The notes below the pieces were generated by a model. The model had not been told where the DNA came from and did no database searches. It was given only the letters and a program-made list of their open reading frames with translations. A DNA stretch of 64,000 nucleotides. Source: Kyrpidia tusciae DSM 2912 (GTDB lineage: Bacteria; Bacillota; Bacilli; Kyrpidiales; Kyrpidiaceae). The stretch is from contig NC_014098.1 in NCBI RefSeq assembly GCF_000092905.1, positions 186,001-250,000 on the forward strand, read 5' to 3'. The position numbers and the translations under genes are program-made. This document shows, piece by piece, positions 2,503 to 64,000 of the stretch. The number at the start of each line of letters is the position of its first letter. Within the stretch, counting starts at the first letter, position 1.

Positions 2503-3720
2503 TTAGGCCACCGGTTTTACGGATACTTCCATACCGAGTGATTGCAACTTTCGGATGGCCTGTTTTATAACTGCATCTTTTCTACGTTCCTCGTAATATG
2601 TTGGACCGAGTTCGATATAAGGATGCCGCCGTTGTAACATGTGATACACGATCGTTAGGATGCTATGGGCCACTGCGACTGCTGCACGATTTTTTCCTCG
2701 TCGAGCTGCAATTCGATGATATTGTGTAGACAGGTATGTGTTCTTGGTTCTCGCCGCCGCACGTGCTGCTTCCACAAGCGCTGCTCGGAGCTTTTGGTTC
2801 CCTTTACGCGTTTTCCCCGACTTTCGTTTCCCCGCACTCTCGTTGTTCCCTGGAGCCAATCCTGCCCATGAACACAGATGGGCCGCAGACGGAAATTGAG
2901 CCATGTCCGTCCCGATTTCAGCGAGAATCTGCTCCGCTGTCCGTCGACCGACACCGGGGATTGTGTCTATTAACTCCAGGTCCTCCTCAAAAGGGAGCAT
3001 ACGCCTCTTGACCTCTTCGTCGAGCCGGGCAATTTCTTCATCCAGATAATCGATGTGGCGCAGTTGGGCGGCTAACATCATTCGTTGGTGTTCCCCCATC
3101 AGCCCGTTCAGCGCCTTTTGTAGTTCTGGCTTCTTCGTCTTCATCCGACCCTTGGCCAACTCGGACAATACCTCCGGATTCTTCTCTCCATCGATCATTG
3201 CCTCCAGTATCGCCCGCCCGGACTTGCCAAGCGTGTCACTGGCTACTGAGGACAATTTAATATTGGCGCCTTCAAGTACCTTTTGAATCCGGTTTACTTC
3301 CCTGGCTCGCTCTTCAATTAGGCTCCGGCGGTAACGAATGAGTTCCCTCAACTCCCGTTGTTCACGGTTAGGGATGTAACTGGCTTGCAGCAGCCCATGG
3401 CGGAGTAATCCGGCGATCCACTCTGCATCCTTCACATCGGTCTTACGGCCCGGAACATTCTTCATATGCTTGGCATTCACCACGAGCACGTTGAACTCCG
3501 CTGATTCCAGAAGGTTATAGATCGGCTTCCAGAACGAAGCGGTGCTTTCCATTGCAACATGGGTACATCCGTGCTTCCCGAGCCAATCGACCATCTCCAA
3601 AAGATCGTCGGTCATCGTAGAAAAGGTACGAATCTCTTTGGTTTCGGGCGTCAGCACACAAGCAACAACCATCTTCTTGTGAACATCGAGGCCGCAGCAA
3701 CGGTCGTACACGACATCCAT
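2503..3720 (-). CDS. IS110-family transposase (DEDD recombinase)
   Basis: The 405-residue protein shows the IS110 layout: an N-terminal RuvC-like domain with acidic residues in GLDVHK, AMEST and DVKDA, and a C-terminal Transposase_20 region with IPGVGRRTAEQILAEIG and the serine-bearing segment NNESAGKRKSGKTRKG. ATG 3720 is chosen because AGGAAGG precedes it. The frame is intact, so the element may be active. Enzymes of this family are guided by a bridge RNA made from the element's own non-coding end. The gene is lower in GC than its neighbours, consistent with transfer. Confidence 0.95.
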   Translation of the reverse strand: MDVVYDRCCGLDVHKKMVVACVLTPETKEIRTFSTMTDDLLEMVDWLGKHGCTHVAMESTASFWKPIYNLLESAEFNVLVVNAKHMKNVPGRKTDVKDAEWIAGLLRHGLLQASYIPNREQRELRELIRYRRSLIEERAREVNRIQKVLEGANIKLSSVASDTLGKSGRAILEAMIDGEKNPEVLSELAKGRMKTKKPELQKALNGLMGEHQRMMLAAQLRHIDYLDEEIARLDEEVKRRMLPFEEDLELIDTIPGVGRRTAEQILAEIGTDMAQFPSAAHLCSWAGLAPGNNESAGKRKSGKTRKGNQKLRAALVEAARAAARTKNTYLSTQYHRIAARRGKNRAAVAVAHSILTIVYHMLQRRHPYIELGPTYYEERRKDAVIKQAIRKLQSLGMEVSVKPVA

Positions 3721-12203: not shown

Positions 12204-12330
12204 CTGGCTGTGCCCGGGGGGTGACCATCGAGCAGCGTTCGTGATGGGGTGAAGCGATCCCATTGTTCGGCAACTGATCATCGGCAAGGTCTCCTTCTCG
12301 GTGAGGTGCCACGCGCAAGGCATTCACACT
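12204..12330 (-). promoter_or_regulatory. Candidate metal-sensing riboswitch leader of the CDF exporter
   Basis: About 130 nt upstream of the leader terminator are rich in short complementary segments (for example ATGGG/CCCAT, GAAGG/CCTTC). A NiCo (czcD) riboswitch would fit the gene, and GGGCACAGCCAGG is vaguely similar to its conserved core, but I cannot confirm a match. It does not fit the yybP-ykoY, M-box or T-box consensus by eye. Confidence 0.4.
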
Positions 12331-12572
12331 CGTTCAAATCCGGCGAGATGATCGACGTATCGGTTTTATGGTAAGGGGGATCGGCCTTGGCGTCAACCTG
12401 TAGCGCTGGGGCTGCCGGTGAAAGGGGCGACCTCCATCTTCGACCATCGTTGACTTTCGACGAAATGTGGGGAGGATTTTGCCGGTCTGCGTCGAATTGA
12501 GTAGACAGATCCACAACGCTCGCGCTAGGTCTTTCTTCAGTTTCCACGGGCTGGTATACCCTTTTGTGTATT
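12331..12572. other. Non-coding spacer between CDF leader and ndoAI promoter
   Basis: No open frame with a ribosome site. It should hold the minus-strand promoter of the CDF leader, which I could not place with confidence. Confidence 0.4.
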
Positions 12573-12601
12573 TTGACATACTTGGGGTAGACCGCTATAA
12601 T
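12573..12601 (+). promoter_or_regulatory. Consensus sigma-A promoter of ndoAI-ndoA
   Basis: TTGACA (12573-12578), a 17-base spacer and TATAAT (12596-12601) match the consensus exactly, 41 bp ahead of the antitoxin start. Confidence 0.88.
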
Positions 12602-12642
12602 ACTCCTCGTGACGGATGGCGAGTGTCCCGGAGGTGCTTGGG

Positions 12643-12915
12643 TTGTCCGAAACAAAGCGGATTATGATTAGTGTTCCGAGTCACCTGCTCCAGGAAGTCG
12701 ACGGAATTGCAGAAAGAGAGAATTCCAATCGAAGCGAGGTCATTCGCCAAGCGATGAGATTGTATTTGGAAGAGCGTAAAAAGGAACGCATTCGCGAGTT
12801 GATGCAGCGGGGTTATGTGGAGATGGCGAAGATTAACCTTTATATTGCGTCGGAGGCGTTTTACGCCGAAGAGGAGGCGGGTTCGACCCTAGATCGACTA
12901 GTAAGCGGGGTGTGA
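12643..12915 (+). CDS. ndoAI: EndoAI antitoxin, ribbon-helix-helix
   Basis: The 90-residue product has an N-terminal ribbon-helix-helix (KRIMISVPSHLLQEVDG ... SNRSEVIRQAMRLYL) and a C-terminal tail that would wrap the toxin. TTG 12643 follows GGAGGT (12630-12635) with ideal spacing and gives a length near the Bacillus protein (93). It binds and inhibits EndoA and probably autorepresses the strong promoter just upstream. It is followed by ndoA after 3 bp. Confidence 0.93.
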   Translation: MSETKRIMISVPSHLLQEVDGIAERENSNRSEVIRQAMRLYLEERKKERIRELMQRGYVEMAKINLYIASEAFYAEEEAGSTLDRLVSGV

Positions 12916-12918
12916 CCC

Positions 12919-13269
12919 GTGAACATCAAGCGAGGGGATATTTTTTTTGCGAATCTATCCCCGGTGGTCGGTTCTGAGCAAGGGGGCTTCCGGCCGGTAT
13001 TGGTGATCCAAAACGATATCGGAAACCGGTTTAGCCCGACAGTCATCGTCGCGGCAATCACCGCCCAGATTCAGAAGGCTAAGCTGCCCACCCACGTGGA
13101 GATTGATGCGAAGACCTACGGCCTGGATCGGGATTCGGTCATCCTCCTGGAACAGATTCGCACCATTGATAAGCAGCGGTTGACGGATAAGATCACGCAC
13201 CTGGATGATGAGATGATGAGCAAGGTCAACGAGTCGCTCATGATCAGCCTGGGGTTGATCGATTTTTAG
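12919..13269 (+). CDS. ndoA: EndoA toxin, MazF/PemK-type mRNA interferase
   Basis: The 116-residue endoribonuclease cleaves mRNA at short U-rich sites (in Bacillus UACAU). [23 protein letters not shown] and RPVLVIQND are the family hallmarks; the catalytic Arg and Thr lie in this segment and in [10 protein letters not shown]. The start is GTG 12919, three bases after the antitoxin stop, so the pair is coupled. The order acpS...ndoAI-ndoA is that of Bacillus. Confidence 0.96.
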
Positions 13270-13282
13270 GGGAAAAAACGGG

Positions 13283-13311
13283 CAGGGCGTTTCGACGCCC
13301 TGAATTTTTTT
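13283..13311 (+). terminator. Intrinsic terminator after ndoA
   Basis: CAGGGCGT, loop TTCG, ACGCCCTG followed by AATTTTTTT. It ends only two bases before the GGGAGGGG ribosome site of ahcY, leaving no room for a separate ahcY promoter downstream. Confidence 0.9.
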
Positions 13312-13327
13312 GCCGGGAGGGGCGCAC

Positions 13328-14587
13328 ATGGGGAGCAAAGAGGAGTCACAGATTCGGGATCTGGCCTTGGCACCGGAAGGCCGGCGGAAGATCGACTGGG
13401 CGGCGGCACATATGCCCCTGTTGAATACCTTGAGGGAGCGGTTTGAGAAGGACGTTCCTTTTCGCGGGTTGAAGATTGGGATCTGCCTGCATCTCGAGGC
13501 AAAAACCGCTTACCTGGCCGAAGTGATTCAAGCGGGTGGTGCCGAAGTGACGGTGGCGGCGAGCAACCCCTTGTCCACCCAAGATGACGTGGTGGCCGCC
13601 CTGGTGGACAAGGGGATCTATGCCTTCGCGAGGCACGGTGCGGACGATGCCGAGTACGGTGCCCACCTCCGGGCTTTGCTCGATCGGCATCCCGACGCCC
13701 TCATCGATGACGGGGGAGATTTAGTGGGGACCCTCCACCGGGAGCGGCCCGAACAGTTGCCCGAGATCATCGGGGGGTGTGAAGAAACCACAACGGGAAT
13801 CCTGCGCCTTCGGGCTCTGGAGCGGGAGGGGGCATTGGCGTTCCCCATGATCGCCGTGAACGATGCGTATTGTAAATACTTATTTGATAATCGCTACGGG
13901 ACCGGGCAATCGGTGTGGGATGGGATCATGCGTACCACCAATCTGGTCGTTGCCGGGAAGACGGCGGTAGTGGTAGGATATGGATGGTGCGGCAAAGGAG
14001 TTGCCATGCGGGCCAAAGGGCTCGGGGCCCGTGTGGTGGTGTGTGAAGTCAACCCCATTAAGGCCATTGAAGCGATCATGGACGGGTTTGCGGTGATGCC
14101 CCTGGTGGAGGCCAGTCGAGAGGCGGACTTCGTGATCACGGTCACCGGCAACCGGGGCGTGGTGGGAAAAGAGGCGGTGGCGGAGATGAAAGACGGGGCC
14201 GTCTTGTGTAACGCCGGGCATTTTGACGTGGAGATCGATAAGGAGGCGTTGGGGGAAGCGGGGCCACCCCGGGAAGTGCGGCGAAATGTCCAGGAATATC
14301 GGCAGAGGGATGGCAGGCGTCTGTATCTTCTCGCTGAAGGGCGGCTGGTGAACCTGGCTGCCGGAGACGGACATCCGGTGGAGGTCATGGACATGACCTT
14401 TGCCCTTCAGGCTCTGTCGTTGCGGCGCATCGTGGAGCAGGGCCGCCAGTGGGAGCCGCGGGTCTACCCGGTGCCTGAGGACATCGATCGGGAGGTGGCC
14501 AAGTTGCGCCTGGCCACTTTGGGGGTGCGAATTGATCGCCTCACGGAACAACAGGAGCGGTATTTGCGCAGTTGGAACCTGGAATAA
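13328..14587 (+). CDS. ahcY: Adenosylhomocysteinase
   Basis: AhcY hydrolyses S-adenosylhomocysteine to adenosine and homocysteine, clearing the by-product of methylation. The 419-residue product has the substrate domain (HLEAKTAYLAE, GGDLVGTLH, EETTTG, KYLFDNRYGTGQS) and the NAD-binding GYGWCGKG near 217-224. ATG 13328 is preceded by GGGAGGGG. Many Bacilli use Pfs/LuxS instead; here the one-step route is present. It may be transcribed by readthrough from ndoA or from a promoter within that gene. Confidence 0.95.
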   Translation: MGSKEESQIRDLALAPEGRRKIDWAAAHMPLLNTLRERFEKDVPFRGLKIGICLHLEAKTAYLAEVIQAGGAEVTVAASNPLSTQDDVVAALVDKGIYAFARHGADDAEYGAHLRALLDRHPDALIDDGGDLVGTLHRERPEQLPEIIGGCEETTTGILRLRALEREGALAFPMIAVNDAYCKYLFDNRYGTGQSVWDGIMRTTNLVVAGKTAVVVGYGWCGKGVAMRAKGLGARVVVCEVNPIKAIEAIMDGFAVMPLVEASREADFVITVTGNRGVVGKEAVAEMKDGAVLCNAGHFDVEIDKEALGEAGPPREVRRNVQEYRQRDGRRLYLLAEGRLVNLAAGDGHPVEVMDMTFALQALSLRRIVEQGRQWEPRVYPVPEDIDREVAKLRLATLGVRIDRLTEQQERYLRSWNLE

Positions 14588-58290: not shown

Positions 58291-58415
58291 CGATCAATAT
58301 TGTTCGGGACATTCCGCGCACCCAAGTGGACGAGATGAAGGCGGAGTTGGAACAGCACCTGCGCGAAGCCGTCCGGGACGGAAAAACGGTAACGGACGTG
58401 GTGGGCGCTCTGTAG
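58291..58415 (+). pseudogene. Fragment resembling the start of a HAAS-type helical domain
   Basis: Reading on from the terminator gives VRDIPRTQVDEMKAELEQHL then REAVRDGKTVTDVVGAL and a stop. The helix pattern (two short helices with ELEQHL...DGKTV) recalls N-terminal HAAS-like domains of membrane regulators. No start or ribosome site is present upstream of the terminator. Possibly the remnant of a lost gene. Confidence 0.3.
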
Positions 58416-58423
58416 AGAATCGC

Positions 58424-58442
58424 TGACCGGTCAAGGTATAAT
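58424..58442 (+). promoter_or_regulatory. -10 box and palindrome ahead of the sigma-54 activator gene
   Basis: TGACCGGTCA (58424-58433) is a perfect 10-bp palindrome directly before TATAAT (58437-58442). There is no good -35, so the promoter may be weak or regulated at the palindrome. Confidence 0.45.
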
Positions 58443-58519
58443 GGATGCATAGATACGTCAGGGAACCGGACAGGGCGGTTGGGCGGCGGGAGCCGTTCTG
58501 CGAATGGAGGGGTGCCAGA

Positions 58520-60061
58520 ATGGCAGGAGACGATCGGAAAGGCCGGGGTACGAGTGCCTCCGAGCACGGCCAGGGTCTTTCAGGTCAGAGTTTCCCGGCG
58601 GACCCAGACGTGCAGCCGGCGCTCTCCGGACAGACCGAGCAGCCGCAGGAACCTGAGTGGGACCCCGGGCCGGAAGAGGAACTGGAGATGATCTTGAACT
58701 CCGTGTACGACGACATCGTTATCACCGATGGCCGTGGGGTCGTCCTGCGGGCTAGTCGGTCCTGTCAGCGCGTGTACGGTCGAAGCCCGGAAGAGCTGGT
58801 GGGGCAATCTGTTGCGGAACTCGAACGGCAAGGCATTTTTCGCCCATCTATCACTCTGCGGGTTCTGGTCACCGGGACTCGGCAGACGGTGATCCAAACC
58901 ACGGCCGATGGCAGTAAGAAGTTGGTCACCGCCACCCCGGTGTTTGATTCCGAAGGGCGGATTGTCCGGGTGGTTTCGTACTCCCACGACATCACCGAAC
59001 TGATCGAATTAAAAGAGCATCTTGCCGAACTTCAGCAGCAGATGGGCCGGGTCACCCGAGAGCTGGAACACCGGCGAAGCTTGGATACCGAAGTCGATGG
59101 ACTCGTGGTGGAGAGCGGGGCCATGAAGGATCTGGTGCGCCAGATGGCCCAATTGGCCAAGCATGATGTCACCGTCTTGCTTCGAGGGGAATCCGGGGTG
59201 GGCAAGGGCGTGTTCGCTCGCTATCTGCACCAGCACAGTCCCCGGGCCGAGGGCCCGTTTATCGAGATCAACAGTGGGGCCCTTCCGGAATCCTTGGCGG
59301 AATCCGAATTGTTCGGCTACGAACGAGGGACCTTTACCGGAGCACTCAAATCCGGCAAAATCGGGCTCATTGAACTGGCCCACGGGGGAACGTTGTTCCT
59401 CGATGAGGTGGGTGATCTGCCCCTTCCCCTTCAGGTCAAGCTCTTGAAAGTGATCCAGGAAAAAACCTTCTATCGCGTCGGAGGTCGGGCGCCGGTCCAC
59501 TCGAATTTTCGCCTGATTGCCGCGACCAATCGCGATCTCGAGGCGTTAGTGCGGGCAGGGGCTTTTCGGGAAGATCTGTTTTATCGTCTAAATACGGTTC
59601 CCGTGACGATTCCGCCCTTGCGGGAGCGGCGGGAGGATATCCCGGGGCTGGCCGGATACTTCCTCGAACGGTACAATGCAAAATACCACGCCCGGAAGAG
59701 GATCGATCCCGGGGCGCTTCGGCAGTTGGTCAACTATTCGTGGCCCGGCAATGTGCGGGAGTTGGAAAACCTGATCGAGCGCCTGGTTCTCCTCGTAGAG
59801 GGTGAGGTCATCCAGCCGACCGATCTACTTTTCGGCGATGCTGCGGGAAACGGGCACAGGATGGACGACAACCTGTCGGATCCTCCGTCCCCGGGTTTGG
59901 GGGCCCTGCCCTTGCCTGACCTGGTGGCGGCCTATGAACGGCATCTGCTTGACGAGGCCCGGCGCCGATGTCGGAGCACCACGGAGATGGCTTCCCTTCT
60001 CGGCGTCAGTCAACCGACGGTGGTCCGGAAGCTGCGGCGGTATTTTGGTTCCACGGGCTAG
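58520..60061 (+). CDS. Sigma-54-dependent transcriptional activator with PAS domain (RocR/BkdR-like)
   Basis: The 513-residue protein has an N-terminal PAS sensor (about 55-170), a short coiled coil, an AAA+ domain (about 205-430) and a C-terminal helix-turn-helix (STTEMASLLGVSQPTVVRKL). Walker A is GESGVGKG and Walker B GTLFLDEVG. The sigma-54 contact loop reads GTFTGA, a variant of GAFTGA. GGAGGGGTG precedes ATG 58520. It should activate the downstream nitrogen operon through the palindromes at 60.1 kb. The inducer is unknown; PAS suggests a small ligand. Confidence 0.93.
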   Translation: MAGDDRKGRGTSASEHGQGLSGQSFPADPDVQPALSGQTEQPQEPEWDPGPEEELEMILNSVYDDIVITDGRGVVLRASRSCQRVYGRSPEELVGQSVAELERQGIFRPSITLRVLVTGTRQTVIQTTADGSKKLVTATPVFDSEGRIVRVVSYSHDITELIELKEHLAELQQQMGRVTRELEHRRSLDTEVDGLVVESGAMKDLVRQMAQLAKHDVTVLLRGESGVGKGVFARYLHQHSPRAEGPFIEINSGALPESLAESELFGYERGTFTGALKSGKIGLIELAHGGTLFLDEVGDLPLPLQVKLLKVIQEKTFYRVGGRAPVHSNFRLIAATNRDLEALVRAGAFREDLFYRLNTVPVTIPPLRERREDIPGLAGYFLERYNAKYHARKRIDPGALRQLVNYSWPGNVRELENLIERLVLLVEGEVIQPTDLLFGDAAGNGHRMDDNLSDPPSPGLGALPLPDLVAAYERHLLDEARRRCRSTTEMASLLGVSQPTVVRKLRRYFGSTG

Positions 60062-60106
60062 GCCGGGAACTGGCCAGGCGGACTGGCTGCTGAGAAGGGG
60101 TGCTGT

Positions 60107-60146
60107 TATACGAACTTGTATAGGGACTTATACAGATCTGTATAAG
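60107..60146. promoter_or_regulatory. Upstream activating palindromes for the sigma-54 activator
   Basis: CTTATACAGATCTGTATAAG (60127-60146) is a perfect 20-bp palindrome. TATACGAACTTGTATA (60107-60122) is a diverged copy of its core. Their centres are 22 bp apart, two helical turns, placing two dimers on one DNA face about 150 bp before the -24/-12 promoter. Confidence 0.85.
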
Positions 60147-60277
60147 TTTGACGACCAAACTGTTCGTTTGCTGGATGGAGCCAGCACCAGACAGCCTTAA
60201 AAAATCACTTGGATTTTCTGTACTTCTTTCCCCACTGACCCTTCAAACCTCTCCTCGATACGTTATGTATTCTAACA

Positions 60278-60293
60278 TGGCACGAATCCTGCA
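60278..60293 (+). promoter_or_regulatory. Sigma-54 (-24/-12) promoter of the ureohydrolase operon
   Basis: TGGCACGAATCCTGCA carries the GG and GC elements with exactly 10 bases between and matches TGGCACG-N4-TTGCW except one base. It lies 28 bp before the start codon, so the leader is about 17 nt. Confidence 0.88.
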
Positions 60294-60320
60294 TGATCCC
60301 TTCGCCCAGGAGGGATCGAA

Positions 60321-61286
60321 ATGTCGTATCAACCGAAGGATTCTTTTGAGTCGCCTCGATTTTGTGGAGTTCGCACCTTTATGCGCCTGCCCTATGTGGA
60401 ACATCTTGACACCGCAGAACCGATCGATTTTGCCGTGGTCGGGGTGCCTTTTGACACCGGCCAGTCTTACCGGACCGGCGCCCGGTTTGGTCCGGCGCAC
60501 ATCCGAGATTTTTCCGTGTTGCTCCGACCCTATCATCCCCAGCAGGACATCTGCGTGTTCGATTATGTCTCGGGGATCGATTACGGGGACCTGCCGGTGG
60601 TACCGGGCTACATCGAGGAAACGTACCGCCGGATGGTCGAAGGCTTGACGCCATTGCTCGATCACGGCATTGTGCCCATCATCCTTGGCGGGGACCACAG
60701 TATTACCTTAGGGGAGCTTCGGGCTGTGGCGAAGCGCTATGGCCCCGTGGGGCTCATTCATTTCGACTCTCACTCGGACACCTGGGACAGTTATTTTGGC
60801 CAAAAATACAATCATGGGACGCCTTTCCGCCGGGCTGCGGAGGAGGGGCTGTTGGCTCCGGAGCGGGTGATTCAGGTGGGGATGCGCGGGCCGTTGTACG
60901 GGCCAAAGGATCTCGACGATGCCCGGCAGTTGGGGTTTGCCGTGTACACCACCGACGACTTGCTCGCCATGGGAATTCCCGAGATGATCCGGTTGATCCG
61001 GGAACGCGTCGGGAGCGGGCCCACGTTTCTCTCCTTTGATATCGATTTTCTCGATCCCGTGTACGCACCCGGGACGGGGACTCCCGAGGTAGCCGGTGTC
61101 ACGGTTGCCCAGGCTCAACAGTTGGTACGGGGACTCGCGGGTCTGAACATCGTCGCGTATGACCTGGTGGAGGTCCTGCCCGCGTACGACAGTGGCCAGA
61201 TCACCGCCGCGGCCGCGGCGAACGTGGTGTACGAATTTATCGCCCTTCTCGCTCTAGGAAAGAGAGGAGGTCATCGGGATGGCTGA
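60321..61286 (+). CDS. Ureohydrolase (agmatinase / guanidino-acid hydrolase family)
   Basis: The 321-residue Mn-dependent enzyme splits urea from a guanidino compound. All metal ligands are seen: GGDHS, HFDSHSDTWD and SFDIDFLDP, followed by GTGTPEVAG. It matches agmatinase, guanidinobutyrase and guanidinopropionase alike; the substrate-binding loop is not decisive. ATG 60321 follows CAGGAGGGA. First gene of a sigma-54 operon with a permease, a C-N hydrolase and a cyclase-family enzyme. Confidence 0.92.
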   Translation: MSYQPKDSFESPRFCGVRTFMRLPYVEHLDTAEPIDFAVVGVPFDTGQSYRTGARFGPAHIRDFSVLLRPYHPQQDICVFDYVSGIDYGDLPVVPGYIEETYRRMVEGLTPLLDHGIVPIILGGDHSITLGELRAVAKRYGPVGLIHFDSHSDTWDSYFGQKYNHGTPFRRAAEEGLLAPERVIQVGMRGPLYGPKDLDDARQLGFAVYTTDDLLAMGIPEMIRLIRERVGSGPTFLSFDIDFLDPVYAPGTGTPEVAGVTVAQAQQLVRGLAGLNIVAYDLVEVLPAYDSGQITAAAAANVVYEFIALLALGKRGGHRDG

Positions 61287-62652
61287 TTTTACGTCTTCCT
61301 TTGGTCAGGACAGTGTGCACCCGGTTCCCCGGGACAAGCGCTCCATGGGGTTCTTTTCCATCTTCTCTCTCTGGGTGGCGGCCAATTTCGTAGTCACCAC
61401 CGTGTTCACGGGCATGCTGTTGGTGCCGGATTTGCCGTACCTGCAGGCGATCGCCATCATTCTGCTCGGTTCGTTGGTCGGAGGGATTGCCCTGGCGTTG
61501 ACGGGCAATATCGGGATGCGCACTGGACTGCCGACGATGATCCTCACCCGGGGGGCCTTTGGACACCGGGGTGCGGCCCTCCCGTCGGCGGTCAATACGA
61601 TTGTTCTTATCGGATGGAGTTGGATCCAGGCTTATATGGCGGGGTTGAGCCTCGATCACGCGGTGGAGTACCTGACGGGTTATAGCAATGTGGCCTTGTT
61701 TACGATCCTGACGGAGGTCATTGTCGTGGTTATCACCATCTACGGCCACCGCGGGATCGAGCGGACAGAGAACCTCATTGCCACGGCGATGCTCGTGTTG
61801 TCCGTGGTGGTGTTCGGCTATATGTTCATGAAATTTAACATCGGGAATCTGATTTCTATGGCGGCGAGCGAGCATCCTCAGCTCACAGTGATGGTCGCCT
61901 TTGACATCGTCGTCGCCACCGCCTTTTCGTGGCTGTCCTCGGCGTCCGATTATAATCGCAATTGTCGGTCGGAAGGGACCGCCTTCGCCGGGACGTATCT
62001 CGGCTACAACGTGGCGACTTTGGTGGCCATGGGCTTGGGTGCCACGGTGTCCGGATTCTCGATTCTGGGGAACATGACCCAGACCTATGATCCGACTGAA
62101 CTAATTGGACAAGCGAATCCTGCCCTTGGCTTTGTGGCGGCGGTGGTCATTTTCCTGTCTGTGGTGTCTACGAACGTCATGGCCTTGTACAGTGCCACTA
62201 TGTCGTATTTGGCCATCTTTCCCGGCCATCGATTTTGGATTCCCACCGCGGTGATGGGCCTAGTCGCCATCGCCGGGGCGATGCTGCAGGATTGGCTCCT
62301 CGAGCATTTCCAAAATTTTCTCCTCATGGTGGGTACCCTTTTCATTCCGGTGGGGGCGATCCTGTTGACAGATTACTATATCTTGCGCCGCAAGAACTAT
62401 GACGCCCTAGAGATTGTGACGGGCCACAAGAAACTTTACTGGTATCGGAGCGGGGTGAACGTGCGGGCCTATCTCGCCTACATCATCGGGGCGGCGTTCG
62501 CGTATTATTTTTCCTACGTCCACACCCTGCCCACCGGGACGACGGTACTGACGTTTCTGCTCACCTCGGGGGTTTACTGGGTGCTTATGAAGGTAGGGGC
62601 GTCGGCCGAGGGGGAGTCCCGGGCGGAGTATGGCCTGGGTGAGGAGGCCTGA
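61279..62652 (+). CDS. NCS1-family permease (purine/pyrimidine/hydantoin type)
   Basis: The 457-residue transporter has 12 helices with the NCS1 features MGFFSIFSLWVAANF, RTGLPTMILTRGAFG and ASDYNRN. Members import cytosine, allantoin, hydantoins or related nitrogen compounds with H+ or Na+. GAGGAGGTC precedes ATG 61279, which overlaps the ureohydrolase end by 8 bp. It presumably imports the operon's substrate. Confidence 0.93.
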   Translation: MADFTSSFGQDSVHPVPRDKRSMGFFSIFSLWVAANFVVTTVFTGMLLVPDLPYLQAIAIILLGSLVGGIALALTGNIGMRTGLPTMILTRGAFGHRGAALPSAVNTIVLIGWSWIQAYMAGLSLDHAVEYLTGYSNVALFTILTEVIVVVITIYGHRGIERTENLIATAMLVLSVVVFGYMFMKFNIGNLISMAASEHPQLTVMVAFDIVVATAFSWLSSASDYNRNCRSEGTAFAGTYLGYNVATLVAMGLGATVSGFSILGNMTQTYDPTELIGQANPALGFVAAVVIFLSVVSTNVMALYSATMSYLAIFPGHRFWIPTAVMGLVAIAGAMLQDWLLEHFQNFLLMVGTLFIPVGAILLTDYYILRRKNYDALEIVTGHKKLYWYRSGVNVRAYLAYIIGAAFAYYFSYVHTLPTGTTVLTFLLTSGVYWVLMKVGASAEGESRAEYGLGEEA

Positions 62653-62654
62653 GG

Positions 62655-63518
62655 ATGAAGGTTCGCATCGCCGTGGTGCAGGATCGCTACGACGTCGGAG
62701 CGGTGGAGGAGAACCTGGCAAAGATGGAGCGGGCCGTGGCTGAAGACTTAGTTGCCGAGTTCCGGGTGAAGAGAGAGGAGCGGGCCAATGGGGAGGAGCC
62801 GGTGGTTTCCTCCCCGGATTCGCTGCGGGTTTATGTGTTTCCGGAGTTGTGCGTCCCGGGCTATGAAGCCACGCCGCAAGAGATGGGGGAGCTCGCTGAG
62901 CCGAGGAACGGTCCCTCGTTCCGTCGCGTGGCCTCCATGGCTCGCCGGGCGTCCGCCTATGTGGTCTACGGATATGCGGAGCGAAGTGAGGACGGGCGGA
63001 TGTACAATGCTTTGCAGTGCGTGGGCCCGGAGGGATCTTCCTTGGGGAACTATCGCAAAATTCACCTGGCCGGAGCGGAGGGCGACGTGTTCACGCCCGG
63101 CGACGAGTCGGTGGTGTTCGATACGCCCATGGGCCGGGTGGGCCTGATGATCTGTTGGGATCTGGCCTTTCCGGAACTGGCCCGCACCCTCGCCCTGGCC
63201 GGGGCAGAGATGATTTGGGCGGGAAGTGCCTGGGAGAAACCCTATGGCGGGCCTTTTCAGCGCTTCGCCGCCGCCCGGGCCCTGGACAATACGCTTTTTC
63301 TCGCCGTCAGTAACCAGATGGGCCAACCTCGGACCCTTGACTTCTGTGGAGGCAGCGCCGTATACGATCCCACGGGGGTATTGGTGACGGGGCTTGGTGA
63401 AAAGCCCGGCTTGGCGGCGGCGTGGATTGATCTCGCCGATGTGGATCGGCACCGAAGCCATTTTTATACGATGCTGCGGGAGAGACGGCCGGAATGTTAT
63501 CATGAGACGGTGAGGTGA
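62655..63518 (+). CDS. Carbon-nitrogen hydrolase (nitrilase superfamily)
   Basis: The 287-residue enzyme has the Glu-Lys-Cys triad: FPELCVPGYE, NYRKIHL and ICWDLAFPE. Relatives include N-carbamoylputrescine amidase, beta-ureidopropionase and aliphatic amidases, all releasing ammonia or CO2 plus ammonia from carbamoyl or amide groups. GAGGAGG precedes ATG 62655. Given its neighbours it probably hydrolyses an amide or carbamoyl intermediate. Confidence 0.92.
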   Translation: MKVRIAVVQDRYDVGAVEENLAKMERAVAEDLVAEFRVKREERANGEEPVVSSPDSLRVYVFPELCVPGYEATPQEMGELAEPRNGPSFRRVASMARRASAYVVYGYAERSEDGRMYNALQCVGPEGSSLGNYRKIHLAGAEGDVFTPGDESVVFDTPMGRVGLMICWDLAFPELARTLALAGAEMIWAGSAWEKPYGGPFQRFAAARALDNTLFLAVSNQMGQPRTLDFCGGSAVYDPTGVLVTGLGEKPGLAAAWIDLADVDRHRSHFYTMLRERRPECYHETVR

Positions 63519-63523
63519 TGCCG

Positions 63524-64000
63524 ATGTTTCGACCTCGGAAGATCGTGGATCTCTCCATGCCCATCCGAAGGGGCATGCCGGTGTATCCCGGGGATCCGCA
63601 GCCGGATCTGCAACCCGCGGCTACCCTTGACAAGGATGGCTTTAATGTCTCCCATCTTCACTTGGGAACCCACACCGGGACCCATGTGGATGCGCCGTAT
63701 CATTTTTCCGAGGGCGGCGCCCGGATAGACTCCCTGCCCCTGGAGTGGTTCGTCGGCACGGGGCTGATCATTCCCGTCCCGGGAAAAGGACCGAGGGAAT
63801 GCATCTGCCTCGAGGAGGTGGCTCCGTGGGTGGAGCGGGCCGAACCCGGGCAACTGGTCCTCTTTGCGACGGGATGGTGGCGCAAGGCCGGGGAGGCCGA
63901 CTACGTTCGCCATCCCTATGTCGAGGTGCGGGTGATTGAGGCACTCCTTGAGCGGGGTGTTCGGGTCTTCGGTATCGATGCGATGAGCATCGATCCCACC
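63524..64000 (+). CDS. Cyclase-family / kynurenine-formamidase-like hydrolase (3' end cut by window)
   Basis: The 159 codons present include the start IVDLSMPIRRGMPVYPGDP and the metal site HLGTHTGTHVDAPYHF, typical of the cyclase family (PF04199), which hydrolyses amides, lactones or formamides. ATG 63524 is 5 bases after AGGTGA; ATG 63518 overlapping the previous stop is also possible. Roughly the last 50 residues lie outside the window. Fourth gene of the sigma-54 operon. Confidence 0.88.
   Translation, partial: MFRPRKIVDLSMPIRRGMPVYPGDPQPDLQPAATLDKDGFNVSHLHLGTHTGTHVDAPYHFSEGGARIDSLPLEWFVGTGLIIPVPGKGPRECICLEEVAPWVERAEPGQLVLFATGWWRKAGEADYVRHPYVEVRVIEALLERGVRVFGIDAMSIDPT

Follow-up and report, generated by a model that had tools for sequence, protein, structure and literature searches.

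Positions 60106-60293 of the analysed Kyrpidia tusciae DSM 2912 DNA (64,000 nucleotides, hereafter the window) very probably form a sigma-54 control region, in which the activator encoded next to it would act on two palindromes and switch on an operon that probably serves the uptake and breakdown of a nitrogen-rich guanidino compound. The activator and its proposed upstream activator sequence (UAS) are of the GabR-like sigma-54 type, and the same switch, as judged from sequence comparison, recurs in dozens of related bacteria. Among the points that weigh against this assignment, the first site is weak (7.6 bits), and a paralogue with the same recognition helix could bind there too. The features are listed in Table 1.

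Table 1. Coordinates in the window of the control region and its flanking genes.
Feature	Position	Strand	Basis or remark
Sigma-54 activator (bEBP): PAS, Sigma54_activat (AAA+), HTH_50 (TyrR-type HTH)	58520..60061	+	Pfam, ORF, orthologue alignment
UAS 1 (candidate), diverged palindrome	60106..60123	.	Blind motif 7.6 bits, second-best match in window; unchanged in sister species
UAS 2 (candidate), perfect 22-bp palindrome	60126..60147	.	Blind motif 11.1 bits, best match in window; 21/22 in sister species
-24/-12 promoter TGGCACGAATCCTGCA	60278..60293	+	Pattern match; sister species; equivalent boxes in orthologous loci
Ureohydrolase, arginase/agmatinase family	60321..61286	+	Closest to guanidinobutyrase and guanidinopropionase
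NCS1-type permease	61279..62652	+	Closest solved relative hydantoin transporter Mhp1; 8-bp overlap with ureohydrolase gene
Carbon-nitrogen hydrolase (nitrilase superfamily)	62655..63518	+	Domain search, homology
Cyclase-family hydrolase	63515..64000, 187 bp more past window end (L036 6516-7187)	+	Kynurenine formamidase / isatin hydrolase relatives

Palindromes and promoter

No perfect palindrome in the window is longer than UAS 2 (ACTTATACAGATCTGTATAAGT, centre 60136.5). An earlier sequence-only reading of this DNA had recognised it as perfect and counted 20 bp; one more pair extends it to 22 bp. When the window was shuffled 100 times under a first-order Markov model, 6 of the shuffles contained a perfect palindrome of at least 22 bp. 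The second-longest perfect palindrome, CGGTCCCTGCGCAGGGACCG (20 bp), lies at 1192-1211. UAS 1 (TTATACGAACTTGTATAG, centre 60114.5) is a diverged copy with the sequence TTATAC-GAACTT-GTATAG, and the centre-to-centre distance of 22 bp agrees with that given previously. Together, UAS 1 and UAS 2 are the sole mutually similar inverted-repeat pair 17-32 bp apart in the window, while first-order Markov shuffles contained a mean of 0.08 such pairs, with at least one pair in 7 of 100. In the sister species (G001, 3,352,175 bp), UAS 1 is identical and UAS 2 keeps all but one base.

The genome consists of a single contig of 3,384,766 bp (3.38 Mb). The pattern TTATAC-N6-GTATAA at 0-1 mismatch has two matches in it, which lie side by side and correspond to UAS 1 and UAS 2. 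At up to two mismatches, 31 matches were counted genome-wide against 49 for the reversed control. Since the total number of sites is not enriched, it is their pairing and place that are special.

The palindromes lie 45-86 bp past the stop codon of the activator gene and are able to pair, as would suit its transcription terminator or some other RNA hairpin. However, the stem is A+T-rich and there is no T run, and a whole clade of orthologues has the same motif 5' of the activator gene. This explanation was rejected as having next to no probability, because no terminator is called there and the folding is no better than that of shuffles (z = -0.79).

The -24/-12 box, described in the sequence-only reading as TGGCACG-N4-CTGCA, is present downstream of the palindromes. 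TGGCACGAATCCTGCA has one mismatch to TGGCAC-N5-TTGCW, with a C replacing the usual first T of TTGC. Allowing up to one mismatch, this pattern occurs once in the window versus 1.5 expected, which is not above chance, so the box alone proves nothing. The evidence for it is carried by position and conservation. The sister species has TGGTACGAATCCTGCA, with one change, and boxes occur at the equivalent place in orthologous loci. The spacing between UAS and promoter is about 140 bp (143 bp), which falls in the usual range of 100-250 bp given in a study of Clostridiales regulons (PMC6615313). Transcription is predicted to start at 60304, 17 nt 5' of the ATG at 60321, as in the earlier prediction. 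The gene for the cognate sigma factor, rpoN, whose absence had been named as a refutation, is found in a single genomic copy (one Sigma54_DBD gene, E = 2.4e-66).

Activator and operon

The open frame of the activator opens at 58445, and its stop codon ends at 60061. The likelier start is 58520, as it is preceded by a good ribosome-binding site and by a sigma-A-like promoter (58413-58442). Its domains are those of the PAS-AAA+ activator that had been recognised just before the control region. The protein contains Walker A (GESGVGKG) and Walker B (LFLDEVGDL) motifs and a sigma-54 contact loop that reads GTFTGA instead of the canonical GAFTGA, with the F-T-G-A core intact. The corresponding A2 to T change was classified as putatively functional in a survey of activators (PMC3162934). 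The recognition helix SQPTVVRKL is conserved in the alignment with orthologues, and on the activator tree the protein groups with the activators of Alicyclobacillus pomorum and A. fructus.

The TyrR-type HTH, the altered loop, and an orthologue (L069) that is plainly without the loop would fit an activator that no longer uses sigma-54 and instead works a sigma-A promoter from these boxes, like E. coli TyrR. This is highly improbable, as F-T-G-A and both Walker motifs are intact, the -24/-12 box is conserved in Kyrpidia and in the orthologues, and the stretch from 60062 to 60320 yielded no call of a sigma-A-like promoter.

A second activator is encoded in the same genome (G000:C1:351874-353673; L158 7875-9674), and its recognition helix, VSQPTVVRKLR, is identical to that of the window activator. 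It adjoins gabT/gabD-like genes, the palindrome TGATTCATGCACGAATCA, and, on the minus strand, a -24/-12 box (TGGCATATATTTTGCA; L158 12819-12922), and is probably the GabR equivalent of Kyrpidia. Given this neighbourhood, the shared helix, and the related palindrome, the window activator is probably a paralogue that responds to another inducer.

The activator gene is separated by 259 bp of intergenic DNA from four tightly packed genes, in line with the four-gene operon proposed from the sequence alone. The best solved homologues of the ureohydrolase are the Pseudomonas enzymes guanidinobutyrase GbuA and guanidinopropionase GpuA (3nio, 3nip). They score 291 and 283 bits, whereas the best agmatinase reaches 195 and the 7esr/9fek group 173-176. 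The earlier label "nitrogen operon" is therefore reasonable. The nitrilase-family enzyme is closest to an archaeal nitrilase that is also annotated as beta-ureidopropionase. By homology, the operon probably handles a guanidino acid or a related ring compound. The similarities of the enzymes and the permease, and the aldehyde dehydrogenases and aminotransferases that also adjoin the ureohydrolase gene in relatives, suggest that a guanidino or ureido compound is taken up, perhaps ring-opened, and relieved of urea, and that the resulting amine passes on to transamination and oxidation. In Bacillota, COG0010 (arginase/agmatinase) has already been counted by one survey as a main target of sigma-54 (PMC12316311). 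No activator named for such a guanidino operon was found in a literature search, and the activator group with its site code and operon is not described in the literature found.

The motif in related genomes

Orthologous loci were fetched by means of the ureohydrolase, giving 92 including that of the window. The activator gene lies beside the ureohydrolase gene in about 40 of them. Genes for the NCS1 permease and the nitrilase-family and cyclase-family enzymes, and often for an aldehyde dehydrogenase, are recurrent in many Bacillales. From the activator-flanking regions of 29 loci, both Kyrpidia loci being excluded, an 18-bp palindromic motif was learned by hard assignment against a second-order background. 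The result, TwATTCA-N4-TGAATwA (N4 = wwww), has the same centre as the Kyrpidia sites. When this motif was run blind over the window, the two top matches were those at 60128 and 60106, and the third reached 6.3 bits.

The Kyrpidia test is fully blind. The leave-one-out analysis is not entirely so, as most of the tested loci had been included when the motif was initially learned; it gave a significant site (p<0.05 versus first-order Markov shuffles of the region) in 28 of 34 activator loci, and 21 of the 34 carry at least two sites that score 11 bits or higher. Among ureohydrolase loci without an adjacent activator, a site of at least 12 bits was found in 3 of 50; these three also have a -24/-12 box and may be controlled in trans. 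As a control, permuted half-sites yielded a mean of 1.6 sites versus 27. A few permutations scored high, with TWATTCA above the seed, but these reproduce the motif itself in shifted or nearly identical form.

Regarding the search of related genomes suggested by the sequence-only reading, orthologous loci do carry palindromes of this family together with a -24/-12 box, whereas the exact CTTATAC-N6-GTATAAG was found solely in the genome of the window. The sister species differs from it at one outer base. The A. pomorum sites TTATGCAATTTTGTATAC, CTATACGATGTTGTATAA, and TTATTCAAAAACGTATAA are intermediate between ATACA, the form in Kyrpidia, and ATTCA, the common one.

Because the sites follow the activator through different gene orders and are usually missing without it, the proposal that this very activator would bind here is much better than a guess. 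It is improbable that the palindromes serve another regulator, such as the GabR-like paralogue (at about 351.9-353.7 kb) or an unrelated repressor, with the adjacent activator acting elsewhere or only sharing the site. The identical helix of the paralogue and the same-family site near it would allow for this, but across species the motif accompanies orthologues of the adjacent activator, and a separate site and -24/-12 box belong to the paralogue. In its own genome, further targets show no excess over the control pattern, so the window protein looks like a single-target activator. The search for further targets also returned an isolated 1-mismatch site at 2083383, without a -24/-12 box by the pattern used.

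Most loci have the sites, the -24/-12 box, and the operon in this order regardless of the gene order, and the activator gene stays with site and box. It comes first in L087, L088, and L096, last in L080 and L085, and lies inside the activated operon in L075. In eight loci (L072, L073, L074, L089, L091, L111, L114, and L148), the activator gene is closely flanked by the sites on its 5' side and by the -24/-12 box on its 3' side, which leaves about 1.4-1.5 kb between sites and box. Together with L102, whose upstream side is cut off, these form one clade on the activator tree (support 100/99). Regulators known to act over such distances, across a gene or from beyond it, are SoxR of B. thuringiensis (at least 1.7 kb) and RocR at rocG (1.5 kb) (PMC4941409), and the clade is thus a variant with precedent. 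It could reflect enhancer relocation or, in an alternative reading of these sequences, autorepression.

In the activator of L069 (G058, 12293-13630), both the GAFTGA loop (ELFGMADSSDDDP) and the glutamate of Walker B (LDK) have been lost. Paired sites in this locus (3206-3223 and 3225-3242) are flanked by a possible sigma-A promoter (TTGAAA-16-TATATT) on one side and by the ATG of an aminotransferase operon on the other. No -24/-12 box was called before this operon, and rpoN is present in G058. To judge from these changes, the protein looks like an activator converted to a sigma-54-independent repressor. Paired sites of the same motif are also found near further operons in L084 (1896-2000), L096 (1330-1368), and L100 (2728-2765). 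The operon in L084 is an NCS1/nitrilase operon with a -24/-12 box, and divergent aminotransferase/aldehyde dehydrogenase genes lie nearby in L096 and L100. These extra sites suggest that the regulon comprises several operons in these species.

Proposed mechanism and known systems

In the proposed mechanism, the neighbouring PAS/AAA+/TyrR-type-HTH activator would bind both palindromes as dimers and oligomerise, the sites ATACA-N4-TGTAT representing the putative Kyrpidia form of the family motif ATTCA-N4-TGAAT. The spacing of 22 bp, equal to two helical turns, would put the two dimers on the same face of the DNA. The conserved recognition helix and the conserved site would account for the choice of target, and transcription from near 60304 would cover the four genes for predicted guanidino-compound uptake and hydrolysis.

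A wider scenario is offered tentatively and is doubtful as a whole. It comprises an undescribed activator group with the site code ATwCA-N4-TGwAT that would control an undescribed cyclic guanidino/ureido pathway (NCS1 permease, cyclase, nitrilase-family enzyme, guanidino-acid hydrolase, and often aldehyde dehydrogenase). A single relocation would have taken the enhancer to the other side of the activator gene, and in one member the loss of sigma-54 contact would have produced a sigma-A repressor. The control region offers a concrete, testable sigma-54 regulon for Bacillales, consisting of one activator, a DNA code, and a conserved operon. The pathway substrate should become apparent from what induces the activator, and the family is a natural series for studying the evolution of enhancer position, binding code, and sigma-54 contact.

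GabR of Bacillus thuringiensis binds inverted repeats between its gene and the -24/-12 promoter of gabT, which responds through GabR to GABA or succinic semialdehyde (PMC4279683). The window resembles this system in having a PAS/AAA+/HTH gene right before the target, inverted repeats in between, a -24/-12 promoter, and amino-acid-type catabolism; the target genes differ and probably the inducer too. The window activator is not the GabR orthologue, as its target is the ureohydrolase/NCS1/nitrilase/cyclase operon and the gabT/gabD-like genes adjoin a different activator. The B. thuringiensis gabT promoter string has no match in 400 genomes of the class.

SoxR of B. thuringiensis activates, from an inverted-repeat site 5' of its own gene, a sigma-54 promoter that lies past the gene at a distance of at least 1.7 kb, which is the layout of the 5'-site clade. 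In contrast, the window sites lie 3' of the activator gene and close to the promoter, and the SoxR site AAAATATTTTTTACAAATAAAAATATTTT differs (PMC4941409). The sigma-54 regulons of Clostridiales likewise include single-operon activators (65% of activators have one target operon) and multiple UAS 100-250 bp upstream of -24/-12 promoters. They belong to another order; the accessible text tabulates an agmatine regulon (AguQ) and names no guanidino-acid regulon or ATTCA-N4-TGAAT code (PMC6615313).

Pseudomonas GbuA and GpuA are related to the system through the first enzyme of the operon. The Kyrpidia operon differs in its partners, an NCS1 permease and nitrilase-family and cyclase-family enzymes. 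The TYR boxes of E. coli TyrR follow an 18-bp palindromic consensus. TyrR shares with the window protein the HTH_50 type of DNA-binding domain and palindromic boxes. It has no loop for contact with sigma-54 and depends on sigma-70 (PMC3162934), whereas the window protein retains F-T-G-A, which sets it apart from TyrR-type sigma-70 regulators.
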